Positions 2,708-63,479 of a stretch of 64,000 bases of DNA are shown one piece after another; the stretch's first letter is position 1; every line of letters begins with the position of its first letter. A program made the position numbers and the translations under genes. The notes beneath the pieces are model-generated. The model was not told where the DNA came from, made no database searches, and was given only the letters and a program-made list of their open reading frames with translations. The DNA comes from Anagrus nilaparvatae (taxonomy: Eukaryota; Arthropoda; Insecta; Hymenoptera; Mymaridae). The stretch is from contig JAKSXM010000007.1 of NCBI GenBank assembly GCA_022575985.1, forward strand, positions 14,014,501 through 14,078,500. Reading direction: 5' to 3'.

Positions 2708-3984
2708 TACTCCAGTCTAAATACGGGGGGGGGGGGGGGGTTGTATTTTAACTGGCGAACATGAGATTTGCTTTACTATACGTTTTTTGGGTCGCTGAAC
2801 ACGAAAATCGGGGTCATTTCGTAAAGAAATAGGGGCTTCACCCCTAAATTTGCAAAAAAACTACCCTAAAATGGGGTTTTACATAGTTGCACTTTGAGCG
2901 CTCAGATTTGCACCATACGGGTTTTTTGGGTCGCTGATCAAGAATTTCGACTTCTTTTTCATAAATAATTAAAATTTCACCTCTAAATTGGCTAAAATTA
3001 CCCCCGAAAAGACTTACTTATCATAAATATTCAATATTCACCGTTAAAAAAGCTAAAACTACCCCTTAAAAGGGTTTGTACATCCAGGATATGTATATAT
3101 AGGTTTTGTGGGTCTCCAATCAAGAAATTCGACTCCTTTTTCATAAATATTCAAAATTTCACCCATAAAACAGCTAAAATTACTCCTAAAAGGTGTATTT
3201 TCACACTTCGAGCATCCCGATTATGTCCATTCAGGTCCCTAGGCCGCTGATCAATAAAAATTTGTTATAAAAATAAGTAAGTATTAATTTTTTTATAAAA
3301 AATTAAATTTTTTTATAAAAAATTAAATTTTTTTATAAAAAATTAATACTTACCTGAAAAATAAATTATTATAGTGGAGGTAAAAATAAATAAGTGACAT
3401 TTAATATATTTTTTTTTTTTTTATAATGCATGCTTAAGAAATATTTAATACTTATGAGAAATAAGTCGAAATTCTTGATTAGCGACCCAAAAAACCTATA
3501 TAAACATATCCTGGATGCTCAAAGTGCCCACATAGCAAAAACATCCCTTTTAGGGGTAGTTTTAGCTAATTTAAGGGTGAAATATTGAAAATTTATGAAA
3601 AATAAGTAGAAATTCTTAATCAGCGACCCAAAAAACCGATATGGACATATCCTGGTTGCTCAAAGTTCGAAAATAGCAAAAACACCCTCTTTTTGGGGGT
3701 AATTTTATCCAATTTAGACGTGAAATTTTAATTATTTATGAAAAATAAGTCGAACTTGATCAGCGACCCAAAAAACCCTTTAGGTGCAAATCTGAGCGCT
3801 CAAAGTGCAACTATGTAAAAAACACCCCATTTTAGGGTAGTTTTTTGCAAATTTAGGGGTGAAGCCCCCATTTTTTTACGAAATGGCCCCCATTTTCGTG
3901 TTCAGCGACCCAAAAAACATATAGTAAAGCAAATTTCATGTTTGCCAGTAAAAAGACAACCAAACCCGTATTTTGACTGGAGTA
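2708..3984. mobile_element. 1.28 kb non-coding TIR element, TACTCCAGT family
   Basis: The ends are inverted copies: TACTCCAGTCTAAATACGGG on the left and, on the reverse strand, TACTCCAGTCAAAATACGGG on the right. The whole element is a fold-back structure. Within each arm the motif GGTTTTTTGGGTCGCTGA (or a close variant) recurs several times, next to paired 'cacccctaaatttgcaaaa' type blocks. The centre holds three copies of a ~22-bp AT-rich unit (about 3290-3350). It is flanked by CCA at 2705-2707 and 3985-3987, a 3-bp target duplication. There is no coding capacity. It shares its ends and core motif with the coding element at 59524-63476, so it is probably a non-autonomous relative. Confidence 0.88.
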
Positions 3985-11713: not shown

Positions 11714-12721
11714 CTATTGTTCATTCTCTAATTTATGAAAGTAAAGTCTGATACTCTTTTTAAAACGAGAATAGGATGGTAAATCCCTTATACAGGGGGG
11801 AATCGAATTCCATTGATTCGCATACTTTACTTGAAAAGAGTATAGACCCCAGTCAGTGGGTACTGTGGTAACCTTAAGGTCTTTACGGGGGCCTCTGGTA
11901 GGTTTGTCTGATTTGTATGGTTCAAATAAAGTGCATAATAAAGGAGGTTCTCTCATACGCACAATTCTATACATAATAAGGGATGCAAAGTAGTCAGTTC
12001 TGGTCACGTTAAGCATCCAACCAAGACGCTTCCTGTATGATGTAATGTGTTCTTGTCGTCTCAAACCAAAAATGTACCTAATACCTGAATTAGTGAGTCT
12101 CTGTAATTGCCCACTCAGTTCATTAGAAATATCAGAATAAACTGCTGAGCAGTAATCCAAATGGGGAATCACAAGAGACTCAATGAGGCGCTTACGAAGT
12201 GCTTCAGAGGTACAAGATTTGATGAGCCTAAGACCATACAATATGCTATTTACTTTCTTGGTCACCTTTGTCACTTGAGGACGCCAAGACAAACAAGAGT
12301 CTAAGGTGATACCAAGACTGACAACCTCATCCACAAAGGGAACACAAACACCACTATCATTGATAACAATTTTGGAAATATTTAATTTCTTAAATGAATT
12401 AACTGTGGTAGAAGAACCAAAAACAATCGCTTGTGTTTTCTTTATGTTTATAGATAAGTTATTTGCATTAGCCCATGTCGCCACTTTTATGGCTCGTTCC
12501 GAAAGGTATGCAATACCTTGTTCAATCTGGTCAGTGGGAACTTGGACATATATCTGTAGATCACCCGCGTATAATAGTCTGAAAGTTATGTCATCACTTA
12601 AGTGGTCTTTAAGATCATTCATGTAAATACAAAAGAGGAGTGGCCCAAGAACGGATCCCTGGGGCACTCCAGTATTTATATCGCGGAAAGTTGATGTTAT
12701 AGATTTTGATGACACACACAT
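11714..12721 (-). pseudogene. LINE reverse transcriptase C-terminal half (copy A)
   Basis: A 335-residue open frame starts just before the RT motif GVPQGSVLGPLLFCIYMNDL (about residues 18-37). It continues through the catalytic box, here YAGDLQIYVQV, the thumb and a long C-terminal region typical of CR1/L2-type elements (YFASLIMYRIVRMREPP .. WNSIPPCIRDL). The first Asp of the catalytic YADD pair is Gly, so this copy would be inactive although its frame is otherwise open to the stop. The endonuclease and the front of the RT are missing. Confidence 0.88.
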
Positions 12722-18410: not shown

Positions 18411-20068
18411 CTATAATATAAAAATAAATTTTTGAAAGTAATATGCTATGAAAAAATTAAATTTGCGTCAAATATATACAAGGTTTGCTTTAGACTCCTC
18501 TAAGGATCGTTTTAAATATAATGTTTTCTAAATTTCATAGCTAAAAAACAGTATTTTCCCAATTTTGAGCTGTCGATTAGGATATAAAAATTTATTTTTT
18601 ATCTATAATGTGTAAATTGAAAATTTTCTTTGTCAAAAATATTTCCGCAGATGAAAATTTTTTAAATATTTCATAGTGAAAAAAAATACAAAAAAGAAAT
18701 AAGAAACAGAATTTCTGGGAACCACCTTTCTGTCCCCGCATGATAATTTCGGAAAATTCTGATTCAATTTTTGGATTCCCCGGAAAATTTTATTTTACAG
18801 CGTTTCATAAATATCTAAAACTTGTCTATAAAAAGAAATTAAAGTAATTTATTCAGTGAAAGAAAATTGGGTCCCAGAAATTCTCTTCTGCTCAGACCCC
18901 AGAAATTCTGTTGTTTTTAATTATTTTTTTTAGCAGGGTTTATCTAAAAAATTTTATATTTTAAAATCTCATACAGTTTGATCTCAAAATCTTGTATTAA
19001 TAAATAAATAAAAAAATTTAACTTTCAGATCCAATCTTTAATTCATCCGCCTGTAAAAATAATTTTATTGCTACTTGCAAAGACTTGATTTAGTTTTATT
19101 TTTTACTGAAACATGGGCAATGAAAAATTTTGCCTCCTTTTTTAAAATTTTATTAGAAATTTTAATCCAAAGGAAATACCTATTTATAATTTTATACAAA
19201 AACAAATCCAATCAAGCCGCGTCTACTCGGCCTAACTAAAAAATAAAACTATAACACTTACTCATAAATCATTTGATGCTCTTGTATAAGTAGCTTGAAT
19301 TTAATTTTTTCTTCATTTTCAATAAATTTTTTTGTTCCTTTTAATGATTTCAAATAATCAAATGTTATCTCTAAGTGATTAATTAATATTTCAAATTGAT
19401 TCTTCAAATTCATTATTAATGCCAAAAATATACAATCATATGAGCAGGTATCAAGACACGAATAAAATAATGCAATAGACTCAAATACATAAAAATACCA
19501 GTAATTATTATCATTCAATTCAATAATTGTGTACATTTCAACTGGTAATTTTCGATTAACTTTGTTATTTACCAATGGTGGTATTATAAACGTGAAAAAT
19601 AAAACTATCACTAAACATGTAAATACTTTTGTTATTAAACTGGAAAAAAAAGTTAAAAAAATTAAAAAAACCAATAAATTTAAATGAATAAAATAAAAAT
19701 TACCTATTTAATTTATCACATTTTAATTGTAAATAACTATCGCCTTTTTGATTAACATAATTTTCAAAATTTTTAATTAAATTAATTAATTTATTTTTAA
19801 TCAATAATAATGTCACAAATTTAAAACCACACATAAATATTGATACTGTCATATATGATATTTCAATAATATCATCAAAATTTTTATTAAACTCTTTTAC
19901 TAATGTTAAATTTTTAATTATTAAACTAATTACAGTTAAAAATATAAATGAAAATACGGTATAACAATAAAATTTGTGCAATTTTATTTTAATTTTTGAT
20001 TTTAATTCATTAGGCGTCCAAAAACCTAAAATATATAATAAGCGAAAAGGTAATTTTATAATTTTCAT
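18206..20068 (-). CDS. Insect odorant receptor (7tm_6 family), C-terminus not found
   Basis: Three minus-strand exons with GT-AG introns join in frame: 20068-19704, 19639-19262 and 18410-18206, giving about 316 residues. Insect odorant receptors are seven-transmembrane ligand-gated channel subunits that pair with the co-receptor Orco in sensory neuron membranes. Supporting features are the N-terminal start MKIIKLPFRLLYILGFWTP, hydrophobic segments near residues 35-55, 70-90 and 130-145, and the middle region YSCLDTCSYDCIFLAL. Then come the cytoplasmic 'LIQEHQMIYD' block (usual form H..I), the IQYLTQFFLISLGVY helix and the QLSAICFTSNGNL segment typical of the TM6 side. Family members are about 380-400 residues. 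The last 60-80 residues, with TM7, are not visible downstream of 18206, so a distant exon or a pseudogene is possible. Subfamily is unknown. Confidence 0.85.
19262..19639 (-). CDS. Odorant receptor exon 2
   Basis: It continues in frame from exon 1 (AG|T gives Ser) and encodes TM3, the extracellular loop, TM4 and most of the loop before TM5. The donor is GTAAGT. The intron to exon 3 is about 850 bp and contains a small inverted pair around 'cagaatttctggga'. Confidence 0.85.
19704..20068 (-). CDS. Odorant receptor exon 1
   Basis: It starts at ATG 20068 and ends in phase 2 before a GTAATT donor. It encodes 121 residues covering the cytoplasmic N-terminus and the first two hydrophobic helices. 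The 64-bp intron that follows ends in TTTTCCAG. Confidence 0.85.
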
Positions 20069-39800: not shown

Positions 39801-42800
39801 TGGTCTAATGAGCATTTTATACATAAGTAGGTCATTTTTAATGCCTAATGCGGAATGACACTTTAATATCGGCATAAGTTTGACAATTACACCGTAGGTT
39901 TGATTTCTTTTATTTGAGATATGTTTACAAAAATTTAATTGACAATCGAAAGTAACTCCCAGATAATTGACACTGCGTTTCCAATCAATCAGAACGTTAT
40001 TATATTTCAGAGGGTCAACATCGTGTAAAGATGATTGCTTCTGATTTATCAGCATTTATTTTTATACGCCATTTAGTGCACCATTCGTGCATCAAATCTA
40101 ATTGATTATTTAATTCGCGAACTATTTTTTTGCTATCTTTAGACGAGGTATAATATATCCTATCGTCCGCATAAACCGCGGTCTCCACACCTACATGTCT
40201 TGGCATATCGTCAATATATAACTTAAAAACTTTGGGACCGATCAGGCTTCCTTGGGGGACACCCGATTCAATGGCAAATTCCTCAGACATTGCATTGCCT
40301 ACTTGGACTACAAATTTACGGTTTTTAAGATAAGAATTTAGAAAATGAATGAAGCAGTCGGGTGCTTCAAGTTCTATTAGTTTGCGTAACAGACCATTAT
40401 GCCAGACGCTATTAAAAGCCTTGGCAACGTCAAGCAAAACAGCACCAACTTTTTGTTTATTCTTGATACTACTTTTGTTAAATTCGCGTGTGATATATTC
40501 TGTGACTCTTAGAATTTGCTGTTGAGTCGAGTGTTCATGACGAAAGCCAAATTGTTCGTCATATATTAATTTATTTTGTAGACGGGCCATGAACATTGCT
40601 TCAAGAGCTTTGCTCATGGTATTGAGGAGGCTTATAGGTCTGTAACTACTGGGTTGCCTAGGGTTCTTACCGTTACCTTTCATAATTACCATGATAATAG
40701 CTTTTTTCTAAGCCGGAGGAAAATAGTTTAATTTAAAAAATGCGTTGAAAATTTCAAATATGAATTCTAATACAAAGTCGGTGAGATTTTTGAGCACGAA
40801 ATTAGATATACCATCAATTCCTGGGGCTTCGTTATTTTTGGTACTTTTTATGTAGTCTTTCAGTTGTTCAAGGGTTATAAAATCAATTTCTGATTCACAA
40901 GACTTCTTAAGGAAGCCCTCCACAAATTTATTGGTCTCTTCAATTAAAATTGGGTCAGAGGGCTCCGCGTGGGGGGATATGGTTATAGCTAAGTAGCCAC
41001 CAAGTCGACTGGCTTTATCTTTAGGTGAAAAGAACTTCAGTTCGCCATTCTCATCCTTTAACGGTGGAATATTTCGCGGGGATATTGTAAGAACTTTAGT
41101 CATTTGATAAAGGGTATGATCTTTAATTTTTTAATTTTTAACAGTATCTTGCCAAGAATTGCATTTAAATTTATTTATTACATCTGTAATTTGACGTCGT
41201 AAGTTGTTTATTAAGTTTTTGATAATGGGACTGAAGTACTTACGATTTACTCTCTTCAGTTTATTTCGGGTTTTGATTAGATCTTTAGTTTCTTTAGGCA
41301 ATTCGTTGGAAACAAATTTACTTGTTCTAACAGGTGTGGATTTTTCAACTGAGTTATGTTTTTTGTAACAGTTTCAATCGCGTCATCGATTTTTCGGGTT
41401 GAGTCTAGTGCTGTTAGTTTTGGGTGAGTTTTTTCAAGAGATTCATTGAAGATGAACCAATTGGTCTTTGAGAAGTTATATCTGGGAGTTCGTACGTCAA
41501 AGTTAAGAGAGAGGTTAACTGTATGTATTAATGGGAGGTGATCAGAGTCTAGCTCATCAGCTACTGCTGTTCCGATTAGATAAGAGCAATTTTTTAATAT
41601 CGCGAAATCAATTATATCAGGTTTGTGCTTTGCATTGTCCGGGTAATGCATAGGCAATTCGGGAGCATGAACGTGCAGATCTCGGTCCATGCAGAATTTG
41701 TTTAAAATATTACCGTAAGTGTCATTGGTACGGCTACCCCAGGCCATATGTTTTGCATTAAAGTCGCTCGCTGCAAAAATTGAAGAATCATCATTTGGAA
41801 AAATTTTTGTTAAATCGTTTTTATCAAAAGTATCAGTGTTACGACCCGGTGGAATATACACTGACACTATTGTGATTTGATTACCGTGAGTGTTTATTTT
41901 TATTGCGTTTGCATTAATAACCGTTAAATTATTAATAACTACTTCGAAATGAGATATATTGGATTTGACCAGAATAGCTGTACCATTGGCATGGTCATTA
42001 CGATAAACTTTGTAACCAAAAACTTTCAATTTTTATTTTCTAAATAGGATTTAGAAACCAGACAAATGTCAATATTGTTTGTTGCAAGAAAATCTTTCAG
42101 TTCGGACTGTTTGTTTTGATTTAAACTACGCGCATTCCAATGGCATATCAACAATTATTCTGGTTTATGATTCATTGTTAAGGGTTAAAATTAATTGAAT
42201 CATGATGCCTAATAATTTCGTAATAAGATCATTTTTGTCAATTGGTTGCTTGTTTATTTCTGCTTGGATTAAGTCCATTGTTTGCCTTAGGAGGGATAAA
42301 TCAACGGCACTATCTTGCGCGTTATTTGAATTTTTAGAATGAACAAAAGGGCGACCGGTCGCTCTTGAGTAGTTGAAGTAATTTTGTTGAGGGCTTGCTT
42401 AAGGTGTAGGGTTATTTCTACTGCTTGGAGGGAGTGGAGAATTTTTAGAGCTATTTAAGGGAGAGTTTTGTTGTTGAGGTTGAGGTTCAGGAGGTTGCTT
42501 AACTTTGGGTGAGGAAATTCTTCTAATTGTAGGTTTAATATTAGTTTTAAAGTAAGGACAGCCACGGTAAATCGCTACATGATTTCCACCACACTTGGGA
42601 CATTTTTTAATTTCTTGAACGGGCATGTATTACTCAAGAGAACTTCGGAACATTTCATACATTTTACTTCAACGTAGCAATTAGCAGTCACGAGATTAGA
42701 TTTTTGACATCGGAAACATTGTACGTGGCGGGGAGTCTTGACATAATTTTTAATCTTAATTTTGGTGTAGTTAAATGACTCGAGCTTTGGGAACTTGGGA

Positions 42801-48800: not shown

Positions 48801-51800
48801 TAAATCCTATAACTTTCTTATAATAAATAAATCAGGTTTAGTCCAGACGCAACCCATAAGGCCTGTGTGTACAGAAAATGAGAAATTTTCACACTATAGC
48901 CAAATTTTGGACATTTTGGCCACTTTATTTAATGTTTCAAGTTCTTGTAACAAAATAAAGTTATCTGAATTTCTGACAATTAAGTTTTTGGTGCATCCAA
49001 TATTTTTTGTGCATTCAGATCATTTTAGAGTTATTTTTAGTCATTCTTTTGGTGTTTCGAGTTCTGGTAACAAAAAAAAACTCCAACGAGCATGGGAAAT
49101 GTTGACTTATAACAGTTTTAACTTATTCTTCTTGATTAAGCCTAAAAAGGGCAATTTCATGGAGCCTATTTTTATTAGATTCTAGGGGCACTAGAGTAAA
49201 AATAACTAGTTATTGCTCAAAAACTATTAAAATTTTCCTCGATCAGGATCCATAAAATCGTCTCAGAGCAAAATTTTAATAAATTTTTAGTGTTAATTAT
49301 TAGAGTTTAATTATTTCAACTCTAATGTGCCATTGTCCCTAGAATCTAGTAAAAATATGCTTAATGAAATCGACCTAAAGTACTCCAAGTCCCTAAATGA
49401 AAATTATTAGTCCGAGTGAAGCATGCGTTAGCATGCTTTACTCAAGTTATATCCCCGCAGGAAAATGATCTAAGGTGAGTTAGTTTGCGCCTTATTGATT
49501 TTATGAATATATATAAAACTTAGACCATAATATTTAAAATTTCATCAGGATCTTCACTATTATTTTATTTTTGAATTACGTTTTTTTTAAACAAAGTTAT
49601 CCCAATTTTACGGACGCGCGTCAATTTTTATATTATTTCTATACTATAAAAATGTTAATATTATGCATGTGTCTATTTTTTCGTGATACTTATTATATCA
49701 TTAATTATATTTTTTATTTATGATAATTATTTAATAATAAAAAATATTATTTATTTAAAGATTTACACGAATATGATATCGGGTTTTACCGAATTGCCCA
49801 CAATAGGCAACTTCAGGTTAATTTTTAGGTATTTTTAAAAAGATCTTTTTTTGTAATTTTAACGACCCCTAGTAGGTTTTTTGGGTCACTGAACACGAAG
49901 ATGATATCGGGTTTTAACGAAAATGATTTAGTTGCCCACAATAGGCAACTTCAGGTTAATTTTTAGGTATTTTAAATTGATCTTTTTTTGTAATTTTAAC
50001 GACCACTAGTAGGTTTTTTGGGTCACTGAACACGAATATGAAATCGGGTTTTAACGAAAATGATTTAGTTGCCCACAATAGGCAACTTCAGGTTAATTTT
50101 TGGGTATTTTTAAATAGATCTTTTTTTGTAATTTTAACGACCCCTAGTAGGTTTTTTGGGTCACTGAACACGAATATGATATCCGGTTTTACCGAAAATG
50201 ATTCAGATGCCCACAATAGGCAATTTCAGGTTAATTTTTGGGTATTTTTAAATAGATCTTTTTTTGTAATTTTAACGACCCCTAGTAGGTTTTTTGGGTC
50301 ACTGAACACGAATATGATATCGGGTTATAACGAAAATGATTTAGTTGCCCATAATAGGCAATTTCAGGTTAATTTTTGGGTATTTTTAAATAGATCTTTT
50401 TTTGTAATTTTAACGACCCCTAGTAGGTTTTTTGGGTCACTGAACACGAATATGATATCGGGTTTTACCGAATATGATTCAGATGCCCAAAATAGGCAAT
50501 TTCAGGTTAATTTTTGGGTATTTTTAAATAGATCTTTATTTGTAATTTTAACGACCCCTAGTAGGTTTTTTGGGTCACTGAACACGAATATGATATCGGG
50601 TTTTACCGAAAATGATTCAGATGCCCACAATAGGCAACTTCAGGTTAATTTTTAGGTATTTTTAAATAGATCTTTTTTTGTAATTTTAATAACCCCTAGT
50701 AGGTTTTTGGGTCACTAAACACGAATATGATATCGGGTTATAACGAAAATGATTTAGTTGCCCATAATAGGCAATTTCAGGTTAATTTTTGGGTATTTTT
50801 AAATAGATCTGTTTTTGTAATTTTAACGACCCCTAGTAGGTTTTTTGGGTCACTGAACACGAATATGATATCGGGTTTTACCGAATATGATTCAGATGCC
50901 CAAAATAGGCAATTTCAGGTTAATTTTTGGGTATTTTTAAATAGATCTTTATTTGTAATTTTAACGACCCCTAGTAGGTTTTTTGGGTCACTGAACACGA
51001 ATATGATATCAGGTTTTACCGAAAATGATTCAGATGCCCACAATAGGCAATTTCAGGTTAATTTTTGGGTATTTTTCAATAGATCTTTTTTTGTAATTTT
51101 AACAACCCCTAGTAGGTTTTTTGGGTCACTGAACACGAATATGAAATCGGGTTTTAACGAAAATGATTTTGTTGCCCACAATAGGCAACTTCAGGTTGAT
51201 TTTTATTATTTTTAAATAGATCTTTTTTTGTAATTTTAATAACCCCTAGTAGGTTTTTTGGGTCACTGAACACGAATATGATATCGGGTTATAACGAAAA
51301 TGATTTAGTTGCCCATAATAGGCAACTTCAGGTTAATTTTTAGGTATTTTTAAATAGATCTTTTTTTGTAATTTTAACGACCCCTAGTAGGTTTTTTGAG
51401 TCACTGAACACGAATATGATATCGGGTTTTAACGAAAATGATTTTGTTGCCCACAATCGGTAAAAACCGATATCATATTTTTGTTGAGTGACCCAAAAAA
51501 CCTACTTGGGGTCGTTAAATTTACAAAAAAAGATCAATTTAAATTTTAGGGCTTAAGGGGGGGGGGGGAATCGTGGCTAATTTCACCTAATTTTTACCAG
51601 CGCAAGTGCATTCATTGTATACAATTTTCTTTAGGGCTATGTGAAGAGATTCCCATAGATTTCATCGTAAGTCAGCCAGGGTCGTGGTTTTCAGAAGTTT
51701 GGCCTTTTTTTTACACCTAGGCCCCGACTATTATCAGTGCTGGTAAATTCAGAGAGCACCAGCGTTGATTTGGAATTATTATATTCTAATTTTTTATTTT

Positions 51801-54800
51801 TTTCACTCTGTGTAAATTCTAATTTTTTATTTTTTTCACATCAAGTTTCTCGTCTTCGAGTTCACTCTGTTTACATTTTGGGCATACAAAAATATTGATT
51901 AGATAATTTTAATTAATTTCAAGAAAAGTATTATAAATTAATTTTATTTAAAAAACAACTAAGGAAAAATTTTTCCGTCATAATTATAAAGGTTTTACGG
52001 TTTTATAACTAATTATAGTTTATTAACCAACAAAATAAACAAAGTGAACTTATGAACAAACATTCAATTTTTATACAAGGTGACTACATGAAAATGTAAA
52101 AAATGTAAAATGTAATAATTCCAAATTAACGCTGCAGGCCTATTCTGTATTTGATTCACGCTGTTTTCACGTGAAATATAAGCGTGAAAACACGTGAAAG
52201 CATGCAATTTTAGGTTAAAAGTACGTGAGTCGAAGGAAATTAGTTATTGAAAATATGAGTTCCTAATTTTAGGTTAGATTTTATTGCGAAAACACTCTGA
52301 AATTGATTCCCTTATAACCAAACTATATTCGCGTTATACGAATGAATGAAAAACTATAACGAAAACTTGAAATTCGATAAAACCTTTCTAAAATAGATTT
52401 CTTGACTAGGTTAATTGAATTAATTGTAATAAATTAAAAATTCTGCAAAATATTAATATTTACTGTTAATATATTTGTAAATTTAATTACATCTTTTTAA
52501 TATTTTGAAATGTAAAGCATCATTTAAAAGCCTCACATAAATGAAAGAAAGAATAAAATAGTCTTTGGCCCCGATACTTTATACCACTTTTTTCTTTTCT
52601 ATTAAAAAGTTATGTTATATTCTTTTTTGTAAAGCATGATACTCCACTCAATATGCGGGTTTGGTTGTATACTAGCCCTCACCACGTTTGGTCTAGAATA
52701 GGTTTTTTGTGTCGCTGATCACGAATATTGAGGTAATTTCTATAGAAGATAAGGCTTTACTCCTAAATCAACAAAATTTAACCCCGAAAAAATGTATTTT
52801 CGCTATATTCACTACTCTAGCTGATTTAAGGGTGAATCTCGAGTTTATTTAATATAGGGCTCCGAAATTCGTAATCAGCGACCCGAAAAACCTATATATT
52901 AGAACAAATCTGGTGAGAGCTAGTAATTATTTCCCCCCTCGCCCCACTGTAATTCAGTGTTAGACTATTAACATGGAACATGTTTATAGGGAGGGGGTAC
53001 CTCAAAACTTGAAAATTAAGGGGGGGGGGTCAAATTTGTCCGGTTTAAGGGGGGGGGTCGAATGAGATTTAAAATAATTTCAATTTAGGGACTTTGAAAA
53101 ATCTGGGCTTAGGGACTTGGAATAATTCGGTTTTAAGGACTTTAAATACTTTTATTTTTTAAAAAAATTCATCTATCATGAAGTTATTTTTTTCACTTTA
53201 TTATAATGAACTATAACTTTGGTCATTATTGGAAATCTTATATAACTTCAGCAAGATCATCACAGAATTAGAGTTCTCGAATATTGTTATAATAATGGAT
53301 CTTATACTGGATGTAAAAAGTTTGCATAATGTACAAATGTTATCCTGTTTGTCGAACTTTTTATTTTTTTACCAAATATGACCGTTGACCAATAGCTTTA
53401 AAAAATAATGACAGAAAATGATATTTATTTTTAATGACGATTATTTATTTATTATAGGAATTAAAATTTTTTTAAAGTAGGTATGTTTAAACTGAATATA
53501 AAATATTCAATATAATTGTTTATTAAAATTAATATTGATAACATTTAATTAAACTGTGGTAAAAATTTTATTGTCAGACATTTTCCAATTATCTGCAGTA
53601 AGTATTGGGATACAATTGCAATAATTATTTATCAATTTTCTTTTGGCAGTCCTTTCCAATATTGTGTCCTTAAATTTAATTCTAATTACTATTTAGGTAA
53701 TCAAAAGAAAAAATGAATATTTTTAAGTAATTAACTATTCATATATTCAATTTTTTGATAAGATGTGTACAATAATTAACAAATATTTAACAAATATATA
53801 AGTAATTTTTCATTTTTTAAGGAATCTTTTATTAAAAAATATATTAATAGTTACCGTAATTATAAATTATAAAATAATTATTTTTATTTTATATTTTATT
53901 TTACTGATTAATATATTTTTATCTTCACTCAGACTTCTCATTATTTATAATGACTTACTAGTTTTAAGTCCCTAAATCGAACATATTCTAAGTCCATTTG
54001 CCCCCCCCCCCCCATAACTGGATTTCGGACCTTTTTCAAATACCCCTTCCTATAAACATGTTCCATGTTAAAAATTAATCCTAACCACTAAAAATTATGT
54101 TTTCTGGTTCATATTTACAAAAATGTTACACCCCATTACTAAGGCATTTTTTGTTTACAAAAATGCGAAAAATTGGTAAAAGATTTCCTAAAAAAACTAT
54201 AACCGAAAAAATAAATATTTTCCGGAAAAAGTTCGACATTTCCATAATCTATAGACTCAAAACATACTTGGCAGTGGTTAAGATAACTTTATTTTGTAAC
54301 AGGAACTCGAAACATTATAAAAATGGCCAAAATAACCTAAATTGGGCCATAGCGAAAAATGTGACCATTTTCCGAAAAAAATACCAAAAGACTGAAGTTG
54401 CAATGGTCTCTTCCTTTCGCACCCACCATGCGCACATGGGCTAATTAATAATATTGAATAAATTTGAACAAATAAAAGTAAAAATATTTTTACTTTTAAA
54501 AATATTTTTAATTTTTAATTTTAATTAACAGAATATCTAAGCATATAAAAATTCATAATTTATAAAAATCAATACCAACTAACAAATTTATTAAAAAATT
54601 TTGCATTTGAATATCGATAAAAAAGTATTTAAAAAGTAAATTCTATAGTAACATAAAATTTTAAATGAAATTTAAATTAAAAATTTAAATGAGACATAAT
54701 TTGACAGATAAAAAGTTATTTAAAAAAAATTAAACTTTTCGTTATAGAACAACTGTTTATTTAGCATAATTTCTTTATTTAAATAAGATTATTTTTTGCA

Positions 54801-59520: not shown

Positions 59521-59599
59521 TATTACTCCAGTCAAATCACGGGGGGGGGTGGTATTGTTTGTGGCCGCCACCAGATTTGGTCTACTATAGGTTTTTTGG

Positions 59600-60350
59600 G
59601 TCGCTGAATCCGAAAATCGGGGTCTTTTATGTGCGCAATTGGGGCTTGACCCTTAAATCGGGCAAAACTGCCCTTTAAAAGGGCATTTTTGCTGTATTCA
59701 TTGTAGACCTTTGAAATTTGGTATACAGGGGTTTTTTGGGTCGCTGATAACGAATATTGCAGTTTTAATTATGAAAAATTACCCCTTGACCCTTAAATTG
59801 GGCAAAACTGCCCTTAAAAAGGGCATTTTTGCTGTATTCATTCTAAGCCTTTGAAATTTGGTATACAGGGGTTTTTTGAGTCGCTAATAACGAATATTGC
59901 AGTTTTAATTATGAAAAATTACCCCTTGACCCTTAAATTGGGCAAAACTGCCCTTAAAAAGGGCATTTTTGCTGTATTCATTCTAAGCCTTTGAAATTTG
60001 GTATACAGGGGTTTTTTGAGTCGCTAATAACGAATATTGCAGTTTTAATTATGAAAAATTACCCCTTGACCCTTAAATTGGGCAAAACTGCCCTTAAAAA
60101 GGGCATTTTTGCTGTATTCATTGTAAGCCTTTGAAATTTGGTATACAGGGGTTTTTTGAGTCGCTAATAACGAATATTGCAGTTTTAATTATTAAAAATT
60201 ACCCCTTGACCCTTAAATTGGGCAAAACTGCCCTTAAAAAGGGCATTTTTGCTGTATTCATTGTAAGCCTTTGAAATTTGGTATACAGGGGTTTTTTAGG
60301 TTGCTGTTCACGAAAATCGCGTTTTTTTAAATTGAAAATTAGGTGTTTGG
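59600..60350. repeat. 140-bp subrepeats, left arm
   Basis: 'gtatacagggg' recurs at 59721, 59861, 60001, 60141 and 60281, exactly 140 bp apart. Each unit holds GGGGTTTTTTGRGTCGCTRA, 'acgaatattgcagttttaatt', 'accccttgacccttaaattg' and the hairpin TGCCCTTAAAAAGGGCA. Confidence 0.95.
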
Positions 60351-60532
60351 CCTCAAATTTGCTAAAACTACTCCTAAAAGGGTTTGAAAGGTATACATAA
60401 ATGAATCATACATTTTTAAGTAATAAGATTTTTTATTATTATTTAAACATAACATATTGTTCTAAAAAAAGTACAAAAAAGTACGAAAACAAATAATTTT
60501 TGAGACATTTTGCAAATATTATATACAATTAA

Positions 60533-62590
60533 TCATACTCCATACTCAATATTATCATAGCTATCGTTATAAATGCAGTCAACACTAATATTTGGTTCAA
60601 AAATTGAACAATCGTAATCTTCATACGTTCTCTCCAGAAGACTGTCATCGTTTTCGTCTATGGTGACGTTTGGCTCTAAAATGGAATTATCCTCACATGT
60701 GTTTTCTGAATTTATGTCAGAGTTATGTTCACAATTTTCGCAGCTCTGACCACTGCACGTTTTGCAGAATATGCTGCATTTTAGACCCAGTTTGCGACAT
60801 CCACATTTTTTTAGGCAACCTTTTTTACAACCGCAACTAAATTTCTTTAAAAATTTGTCTGGTATAAGTGGACATGCAGTAAAAACAGGCTCTAAAATAT
60901 TATCTTTACCGGTTTTCCAACCCCAATCTAAGGGGTTTAAATCTAAATTCAAAGACCAATATTGACATTGAAAGTACACTCGTTTTGTGTGTTCTAGTAT
61001 AGCATAGTCAGTTGGTGGGAGCTTACGAATATCGTAATCTCCAGTCAAATTCTTATAGTGCCTGAGTCTAATCATATTGTATCTGCTTTGAGTAGTTATT
61101 GGATGACCATATAATATGCAAACTATATCTAACGCTATTTTCCGGAGGTCATCAATATTTGCATCGGGTTTAAAAAATTCTTCAGCCTTCTTGGCTAAAT
61201 TGTCATCCTCCTCTGCATCCATAAGTTTGAAAATTTTTTCTTTCCCTCTTAAATAAAATGCAGAAGTGGTATCAGATCCACAAAATGCATGCAAAAAGGC
61301 TACAATTTTTTTTAATTTTGTGTATTTAAATTTATCAGGATGAAACACTATTTTAGGTTCTCTTTTTTTGTCCCTTTTTTTGTTAGGTTTTTCTAAGTAA
61401 ACGTTTGATTTATCGCCAGAAAACTGGGTTAACAAAATTAATATATCTGTATCCTCTGCAACTATTTTAACAGCTTCGTACTCTTCAGATTTATTAATCG
61501 CTGTATGTACTATTAATGCATCAGCATCTTCGACGGCTTGGATTACCTCTACTCCCATTTCTTGAAACATTGGTGTCAGTCGATTTATTAAGAGTTCTTT
61601 ATTATGACCACTGCTTAAAAAATCTTCCTGAGAAACACCAGCTTCTTTTTCATCTGACAAAAATTCTTGATTAGCAGAATAGTGTCTTTTAGATCTTCTT
61701 GACCTCTCAAAACTTTTGGTACTATTTTCTGATAAATATCCATCAAACACAACAGTACACGAAGCATACTGTTTTATATGATTACAATACATATCAAAAA
61801 TTTCTTTAAATGTGGATGTTGGTTTCCAAGTAATGCGATGTAGTAGGTTGCCCCCATCAATTACTGCAATTGTATTACTTGGGAACTCAAAATCTGTAAC
61901 TGGGTCAAAGAGATTATATAATACACTTTTTTCTGATTTATAAAAACCTACTCCGTCAAATATTGCTGCTGGAAACGGAGCTAATTCATAAGAAAGGTAA
62001 TCCTTTAAACCTTCCGTTTTATCATTGGCGCCTAATATTCGCAAAAATACTGCATTTGGATTCACTGGAATTACTTCGTTACCAATTTTAAAGGACGACA
62101 TCATAGCTGATAACGGCAAAACCTTGTTTGACCGTTTTAGATGTAATTCAGAAAAATTCAAATTGGTAAGAGTTTTAACAATTTCAATACCTAACTGATC
62201 TGCCAAGTGACAATTTACGAGACTGTTACCTATTAAACCGGTATCTAAGGCAATCAAATATGGGAGAGTAGGAAAGGGTTCATGATTGTCAAAATACTTA
62301 GACAATTCTATCAAATCTTGTCTATCCTTTTCTCTTCTTGCTGGTCGAGCATCAACATGTTGATCACTGCTAGAAATATCGATACCAGAATATTTTAAAA
62401 GTGCTTTAATTATTTCTAATAGAACAGAAGATGAGGATATCCATTTTGCTATTACGGCATCTGTTACACCTCTTCGAATAAATCCTTTAACAGTTTTGCC
62501 CGATTTAAGGGTCAAGGGGTAATTTTTCATAATTAAAACTGCAATATTCGTTATTAGCGACTCAAAAAACCCCTGTATACCAAATTTCAA
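60533..62590 (-). CDS. Predicted FEN1/PIN-like nuclease with C-terminal CXC domain
   Basis: An intact 685-residue frame inside the TIR element. Residues 1-33 are translated from the terminal repeat, so the real start may be Met21 (62530) or a spliced upstream exon. Residues 75-140 (SSDQHVDARPARREKDRQDL .. TGLIGNSLVNCHLADQLG) resemble a conserved block of uncharacterised invertebrate proteins. Residues 240-445 look like a FEN1/PIN-type metal-dependent nuclease. Acidic positions occur in IDGGNLLH (Asp245), FDGY (Asp283), VEDADALIV (354-357), AEDTDILILL (380-382) and FCGSDTTSAF (Asp440). Residues 584-621 form a tesmin/TSO1-type CXC domain (CGCKKGCLKKCGCRKLGLKC), a zinc-binding DNA-contacting fold. 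The tail is acidic. It is probably the element's transposase or an accessory nuclease that binds the repeats, but no classical DDE domain is seen. Relatives I recall appear longer at the N-terminus, so this copy may be truncated. Confidence 0.85.
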   Translation of the reverse strand: MKFGIQGFFESLITNIAVLIMKNYPLTLKSGKTVKGFIRRGVTDAVIAKWISSSSVLLEIIKALLKYSGIDISSSDQHVDARPARREKDRQDLIELSKYFDNHEPFPTLPYLIALDTGLIGNSLVNCHLADQLGIEIVKTLTNLNFSELHLKRSNKVLPLSAMMSSFKIGNEVIPVNPNAVFLRILGANDKTEGLKDYLSYELAPFPAAIFDGVGFYKSEKSVLYNLFDPVTDFEFPSNTIAVIDGGNLLHRITWKPTSTFKEIFDMYCNHIKQYASCTVVFDGYLSENSTKSFERSRRSKRHYSANQEFLSDEKEAGVSQEDFLSSGHNKELLINRLTPMFQEMGVEVIQAVEDADALIVHTAINKSEEYEAVKIVAEDTDILILLTQFSGDKSNVYLEKPNKKRDKKREPKIVFHPDKFKYTKLKKIVAFLHAFCGSDTTSAFYLRGKEKIFKLMDAEEDDNLAKKAEEFFKPDANIDDLRKIALDIVCILYGHPITTQSRYNMIRLRHYKNLTGDYDIRKLPPTDYAILEHTKRVYFQCQYWSLNLDLNPLDWGWKTGKDNILEPVFTACPLIPDKFLKKFSCGCKKGCLKKCGCRKLGLKCSIFCKTCSGQSCENCEHNSDINSENTCEDNSILEPNVTIDENDDSLLERTYEDYDCSIFEPNISVDCIYNDSYDNIEYGV

Positions 62591-63350
62591 AGGCTTAGAA
62601 TGAATACAGCAAAAATGCCCTTTTTAAGGACAGTTTTGCCCAATTTAAGGGTCAAGGGGTAATTTTTCATAATTAAAACTGCAATATTCGTTATCAGCTA
62701 CCCAAAAAACCCCTGTATACCAAATTTCAAAGGCTTACAATGAATACAGCAAAAATGCCCTTTTAAAGGGCAGTTTTGCCCGATTTAAGGGTCAAGGGGT
62801 AATTTTTCATAATTAAAACTGCAATATTCGTTATCAGCGACCCAAAAAACCCCTGTATACCAAATTTCAAAGGCTTAGAATGAATACAGCAAAAATGCCC
62901 TTTTTAAGGGCAGTTTTGCCCAATTTAAGGGTCAAGGGGTAATTTTTCATAATTAAAACTGCAATATTCGTTATCAGCTACCCAAAAAACCCCTGTATAC
63001 CAAATTTCAAAGGCTTAGAATGAATACAGCAAAAATGCCCTTTTAAAGGGCAGTTTTGCCCGATTTAAGGGTCAAGGGGTAATTTTTCATAATTAAAACT
63101 GCAATATTCGTTATCAGCGACCCAAAAAACCCCTGTATACCAAATTTCAAAGGCTTACAATGAATACAGCAAAAATGCCCTTTTTAAGGGCAGTTTTGCC
63201 CAATTTAAGGGTCAAGGGGTAATTTTTCATAATTAAAACTGCAATATTCGTTATCAGCGACCCAAAAAACCCCTGTATACTAAATTTCAAAGGCCTACAA
63301 TGAATACAGCAAAAATGCCCTTTTAAAGGGCAGTTTTGCCCGATTTAAGG
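62490..63350. repeat. 140-bp subrepeats, right arm (inverted)
   Basis: The inverse string 'ccctgtatac' recurs at 62571, 62711, 62851, 62991, 63131 and 63271, exactly 140 bp apart, giving six units in opposite orientation to the left arm. The innermost unit overlaps the 5' end of the coding frame. Alternate units share variants (cagcta/cagcga, ttttaaaggg/tttttaaggg), which suggests amplification as 280-bp pairs. Confidence 0.95.
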
Positions 63351-63479
63351 GTCAAGCCCCAATTGCGCACATAAAAGACCCCGATTTTCGGATTCAGCGA
63401 CCCAAAAAACCTATAGTAGACCAAATCTGGTAGCGGCCACAAACAATACCACCAAAACCGTGATTTTACTGGAGTATAT

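Follow-up and report, generated by a model that had tools for sequence, protein, structure and literature searches.

We found that the element at positions 59524-63476 of the window (the whole 64,000-nucleotide stretch of Anagrus nilaparvatae DNA that was analysed, C62:14014501-14078500) is most probably, at a probability of about 0.87, an internally deleted copy of a longer transposon. Both of its ends remain, as does the C-terminal half of the family protein with a nuclease region and a CXC-like tail, whereas the predicted DDE transposase part has been lost; because of this loss, the element likely moves only when a fuller relative supplies the enzyme. Two results led us to regard the element as a deletion derivative and not as the representative of a non-DDE class: a longer sister element that carries D, D and E motifs, and a close copy, L025, that retains the TIEQ segment.

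Boundaries, terminal repeats and copies of the element

The element was 3,953 bp long, with the inverted ends TACTCCAGT at 59524 and ACTGGAGTA at 63476, and was flanked on the left (59521-59523) and on the right (63477-63479) by the target-site duplication TAT; the ends and flanks were thus found as claimed in the preliminary description of a mobile element with inverted termini and a 3-bp duplication. The left inverted terminal repeat (59524-60382, plus strand) consisted of the TACTCCAGT end and 140-bp tandem units, of which 4.7 were present at 59645-60297, and was separated from the stop codon of the gene by a gap at 60383-60532 (minus strand). The right inverted terminal repeat (62491-63476, minus strand) contained 6.2 such units at 62491-63356 and adjoined the truncated gene. 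The inverted arms, 59548-60382 and 62619-63453, measured 835 nt and were 94% complementary, with 140-bp units in both, which confirmed the long terminal repeats described earlier. The outer 183 bp of the left and right ends were 96.2% identical, with about seven differences, five of them in or beside a G-run, instead of the approximately three that had been reported for the outer ~185 bp.

Several other features were present in the window. A second element of 1,277 bp at 2708-3984 had TACTCCAGT ends flanked by CCA on either side, and its right part matched the end repeats of the sister element L041 (described below) at 72-76%. A 12-unit array of 138 bp at 49794-51457 contained open frames, the longest of 205 codons, and its core was 86-89% identical over ~30 bp to the 140-bp unit of the 59524-63476 element. 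The segment at 52640-52960 carried TACTCCACT with an internal GGTTTTTTGTGTCGCTGATCACGAATATT motif and is possibly a decayed relative. Additionally, we observed fragments of non-LTR retrotransposons with reverse transcriptase and endonuclease domains (11714-12721, 40015-40692 and 41277-42029) and a fragment of an odorant receptor gene (19258-19674; Pfam 7tm_6).

Copies were searched in the 488.7-Mb genome (393 contigs), and the end-sequence search gave at least 126 matches (best 40 of 2,963 candidates). The 32 regions around end matches, minus two extensions (L038 and L039, which had no end and were left out of the counts) and plus L002 and the window, yielded 32 loci, 28 of which were two-ended. 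L001 and L003-L008 were dropped because they coincided with the window, L009, L010, L029, L025, L011 and L030; the one-ended loci L011, L020, L024 and L040 stood outside the 28, and L032, which had an additional inner end, was paired by its outer ends. Identical 3-bp flanks were found in 27 of the 28 two-ended copies, the exception being L028, in which the left end was also altered. The more diverged end pairs in L013, L018 and L022 had TTA, TTT and ACT on both sides. Three loci (L002, L029 and L030) were 99.8-100% identical to the window body over 336-631 nt, in agreement with the view of a young element. The two ends of L016 (4255-9561) held 24 counted repeat units and one unit, respectively; the element ends apparently expand and contract as tandem arrays.

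Coding sequence from the window body was found in 25 of the 28 two-ended copies (none in L032, L036 and L037), and the loss was one-sided throughout: it was always the 5' side of the gene that was missing and the 3' side that remained. The 3' end of the window body was reached in 24 of them, with L014 stopping 15 bases short, and the 5' cut lay at ~16 different points, as judged by BLAST starts, some of which may coincide within BLAST error. The two-ended copy L025, which was 97% identical to the window copy, still had the segment SGIPPDQTIEQ immediately before the point at which the window copy breaks off, and its terminal repeat was joined directly to this TIEQ segment. When three N-terminal queries were compared with the copies, only residues 357-400 of the relative P0003, which include the TIEQ region, were matched, in L025.

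The open frame, its nuclease region and its cysteine-rich tail

The sole frame of at least 100 codons within the element was that at 60533-62590 (minus strand), with 685 codons, a TTG start and the first ATG at codon 21; a further frame of 105 codons straddled the left end of the element. Codons 1-33 (62492-62590, minus strand) were terminal-repeat DNA and matched repeat units elsewhere in both ends. In the alignment of the family proteins, the window frame started only past about residue 830, just after an SDMTIEQ motif. As judged from this alignment, the window frame corresponds to the C-terminal half of the family proteins, which are ~1,300-1,540 amino acids long, and does not amount to a whole gene. 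The single intact 685-codon gene proposed earlier was therefore upheld as an open frame of that length, but not as a complete gene, since its first codons lie in the 140-bp repeat and the rest aligns only to the C-terminal half of its relatives.

Residues 235-470 (61181-61888, minus strand) formed a FEN/XPG-type nuclease region with D245, D283, E295, D355, D357, D380, D382 and D440. The single window sequence gave no significant Pfam or PDB match for this region; a 12-sequence profile of residues 235-470 matched human EXO1 at E=9e-6, and full-length profiles matched the same protein in the PDB at E=0.003 and 0.002. Upon alignment with EXO1, the FDG, K..ER, AD, ED.D and GCD positions were in register, as were D283, E295, D357, D380, D382 and D440, while D245 preceded the aligned stretch. 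We take the EXO1 residues aligned with these acids to be catalytic. The acids were nearly invariant in a 65-row alignment with gaps set aside: D245 in 64/64, D283 in 63/63, E295 in 63/63, D355 in 59/62, D357 in 61/62, D380 in 61/61, D382 in 61/61 and D440 in 62/62. Given the profile match with the acids in register, we read the region as being of the FEN/XPG type and not as any PIN fold, and the earlier proposal of a FEN-type nuclease in the frame was supported.

The C-terminal tail contained a cysteine cluster at residues 586-620 (60731-60835, minus strand), with nine cysteines that were invariant in 10 tails. Some relatives bear UniRef names with Tesmin/TSO1-like CXC; however, neither the full frame nor any of the 10 tail sequences matched a CXC model of Pfam at E<=1, and we therefore call the tail CXC-like. 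The CXC domain claimed earlier was retained to the extent of this nine-cysteine cluster, but its assignment to the domain family found no counterpart among the Pfam models.

A longer sister element and the predicted DDE half

A protein search of the same genome gave at least 85 matches (best 65 of 2,254 candidates). The nearest long match among those listed, C1:7461944-7463596, was 73% identical over its best stretch and lay within an element of 7,921 bp, L041/L042 (C1:7457434-7465354), which had TACTCCAGT at 7457434, ACTGGAGTA at 7465354, a TTT duplication on both sides and 141-bp repeats in both ends. Comparison of its ends with those of the window element revealed 66-68% identity over several hundred bases. 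Its frame of 1,437 codons, which spanned almost the complete coding region but contained three in-frame stops and a 66-bp triplication, showed the motifs DNAD, TFDQ, LGSFH and TIEQ, followed by the nuclease and the CXC tail in that order; DNAD, TFDQ and TIEQ are a candidate DDE triad. The long relatives aligned to this frame from about residue 95-300 to near their own ends. Because of the three stops and the 73% identity, we regard L041 as a member of a sister family and not as the parent copy, and it is probably not active. Four remoter matches in the same genome (33-37%) had listed frames of 1,223-1,386 codons that were stop-free within the match. No copy of the window family with the N-terminal half was seen among the best 40 of 2,963 candidates of the end search and the best 65 of 2,254 of the protein search, and one may have been missed among the others.

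The search with the window protein found 36 relatives among 7,992 scored candidates, and that with the upstream half of P0003 found 515 among 7,996, of which 120 were listed and were partly the same proteins. The named relatives were mostly from insects (ants, wasps, beetles, moths and butterflies, aphids and a whitefly), together with a soft coral and a rust fungus. In the 65-row alignment, with P0040 numbering and gaps set aside, D416 and D419 were D in 55/55 and D580 in 60/60; E827 was E in 64/65, the one deviating row being that of the window copy, where the repeat encodes Y. On the basis of these invariant residues, we predict a DDE catalytic centre in the N-terminal half of the family protein. 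Pfam placed this half in DUF6589 only, a family whose function is not known, in 5 of 28 long members at E<=0.01; two further single-member Pfam matches among the 28 looked like chance. Full-length profiles gave no RNase H-fold match against the PDB, where only EXO1 and implausible chains appeared, and the matches to RSV phosphoprotein, defensin and COUP were judged to be chance. No relatives were found in viral contigs with one alignment as the query or in prokaryote genomes with one protein as the query.

The preliminary description had proposed that the nuclease and CXC protein may itself serve as the transposase, in which case the element would belong to a new or little-described class without a DDE enzyme, and had named longer copies with a conventional transposase between the same ends as one finding that would speak against it. 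In favour of this reading, the window copy retains the nuclease-site acids, which almost never vary across the family, and copies have moved recently. Nevertheless, L041/L042 is a longer element of this kind, with its transposase part recognised by motifs; this sister element and most of the aligned relatives continue upstream through the invariant D, D and E motifs, and L025 retains part of the piece that was deleted from the window copy. Moreover, no excess of silent changes was seen among the window copy, L015 and L025, with dN of 0.009-0.014 and dS of 0.005-0.013, although the changes were few and the last codons were misaligned. We consequently consider a transposon that relies solely on a non-DDE nuclease to be extremely improbable. 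The alternative offered earlier, an Academ-type nuclease, came close to our finding, but the nuclease sits within one larger protein and is not a separate accessory.

Truncated products of some other transposons act as regulators, and the window body is open throughout and is one of three long truncated copies, with L015 and L025. It is nonetheless very unlikely that the truncated product has been kept as a trans-acting repressor or helper nuclease: L025 has a stop before the CXC tail and L015 has one near the C-terminus, and most of the 25 coding copies are much shorter and are cut at differing points. In pairwise comparisons of the three long copies, purifying selection on the truncated frame was not apparent, with few changes in each pair (dS 0.0125 and dN 0.0135 between the window copy and L025; 0.0079 and 0.0113 between the window copy and L015; 0.0053 and 0.0087 between L015 and L025); the last codons of the window copy were misaligned because its 3' end differs. 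We would likewise give very little credence to the more specific proposal that the truncated protein is produced and works alone as a structure-specific nuclease, binding the 140-bp repeat ends and helping or blocking the transposition of longer relatives in trans.

For the internally deleted copy, a working mechanism can be suggested. The DDE centre predicted in the N-terminal half would cut and join the TACTCCAGT ends with a 3-bp stagger, the cysteine-rich tail and an N-terminal Cys/His region may bind the repeated units of the ends, and the FEN-like domain might trim flaps or gaps as the element is excised or integrated. The internal deletions could stem from gaps that were incompletely repaired after excision. 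The case illustrates that a deletion derivative can pass for a one-gene element with an unusual enzyme, and the claim of a new class is thereby removed. With its ends, 3-bp duplications and longer sister, this well-bounded family provides a setting for testing the role of a FEN-type nuclease in a transposon protein and whether the nuclease sets the duplication length.

Affiliation and comparison with known systems

A description of Academ elements from 2010 reportedly included an XPG nuclease and a Cys8 finger. The combination of a nuclease and 3-bp duplications fits AcademX as published, and by comparison with the published description the family likely belongs to this nuclease-encoding lineage of the Academ superfamily. 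The accessible part of PMC10045372 gives duplications of 3 or 4 bp for AcademX and 9 or 10 bp for AcademH and links these to a nuclease and a helicase, respectively, while that of PMC10294476 treats Academ as a DDE/D superfamily in which curated bivalve elements average 5,565 bp; a Repbase Reports entry on Academ is cited in the accessible part of PMC4455052. In our family, duplications of 3 bp were found in 27 of the 28 two-ended copies and as TTT in L041/L042, and the nuclease was present both in the window copy (EXO1 profile, E=9e-6) and in L041. The DDE/D transposase was absent from the window copy; three acidic motifs occurred in order in L041 and the relatives, without an RNase H profile match. 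That the family forms a separate superfamily, resembling AcademX and lying outside Academ, appears unlikely: the placement of the N-terminal half in DUF6589 only, in 5/28 members, would favour it, but the nuclease and the 3-bp duplication agree with AcademX as described in the published text available. The architecture of the window protein was not found described in the parts of the open-access literature that were available.

AcademH by publication belongs to the same superfamily as AcademX. In the accessible part of PMC10045372 it is described as carrying a helicase and making duplications of 9 or 10 bp; those of the window family measure 3 bp, and its searches yielded no match to a helicase. 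The tail shares CxC-clustered cysteines, nine of them invariant, and the UniRef names of some relatives with the Tesmin/TSO1 and MSL2 CXC domains, but differs in matching no Pfam CXC model. KDZ and other transposons also encode proteins with cysteine clusters, a likeness to the window protein. The nuclease region resembles FEN1, XPG and EXO1 in that its profile matches human EXO1 and the acidic residues line up; it differs in being part of a transposon protein and in being matched by profile and not by single sequence. Whereas the window copy differs from AcademX in being without the N-terminal half and in having ends with arrays of 140-bp units, it shares with AcademX the 3-bp duplications, the nuclease, predicted DDE-type motifs in the longer sister and a size of several kb.
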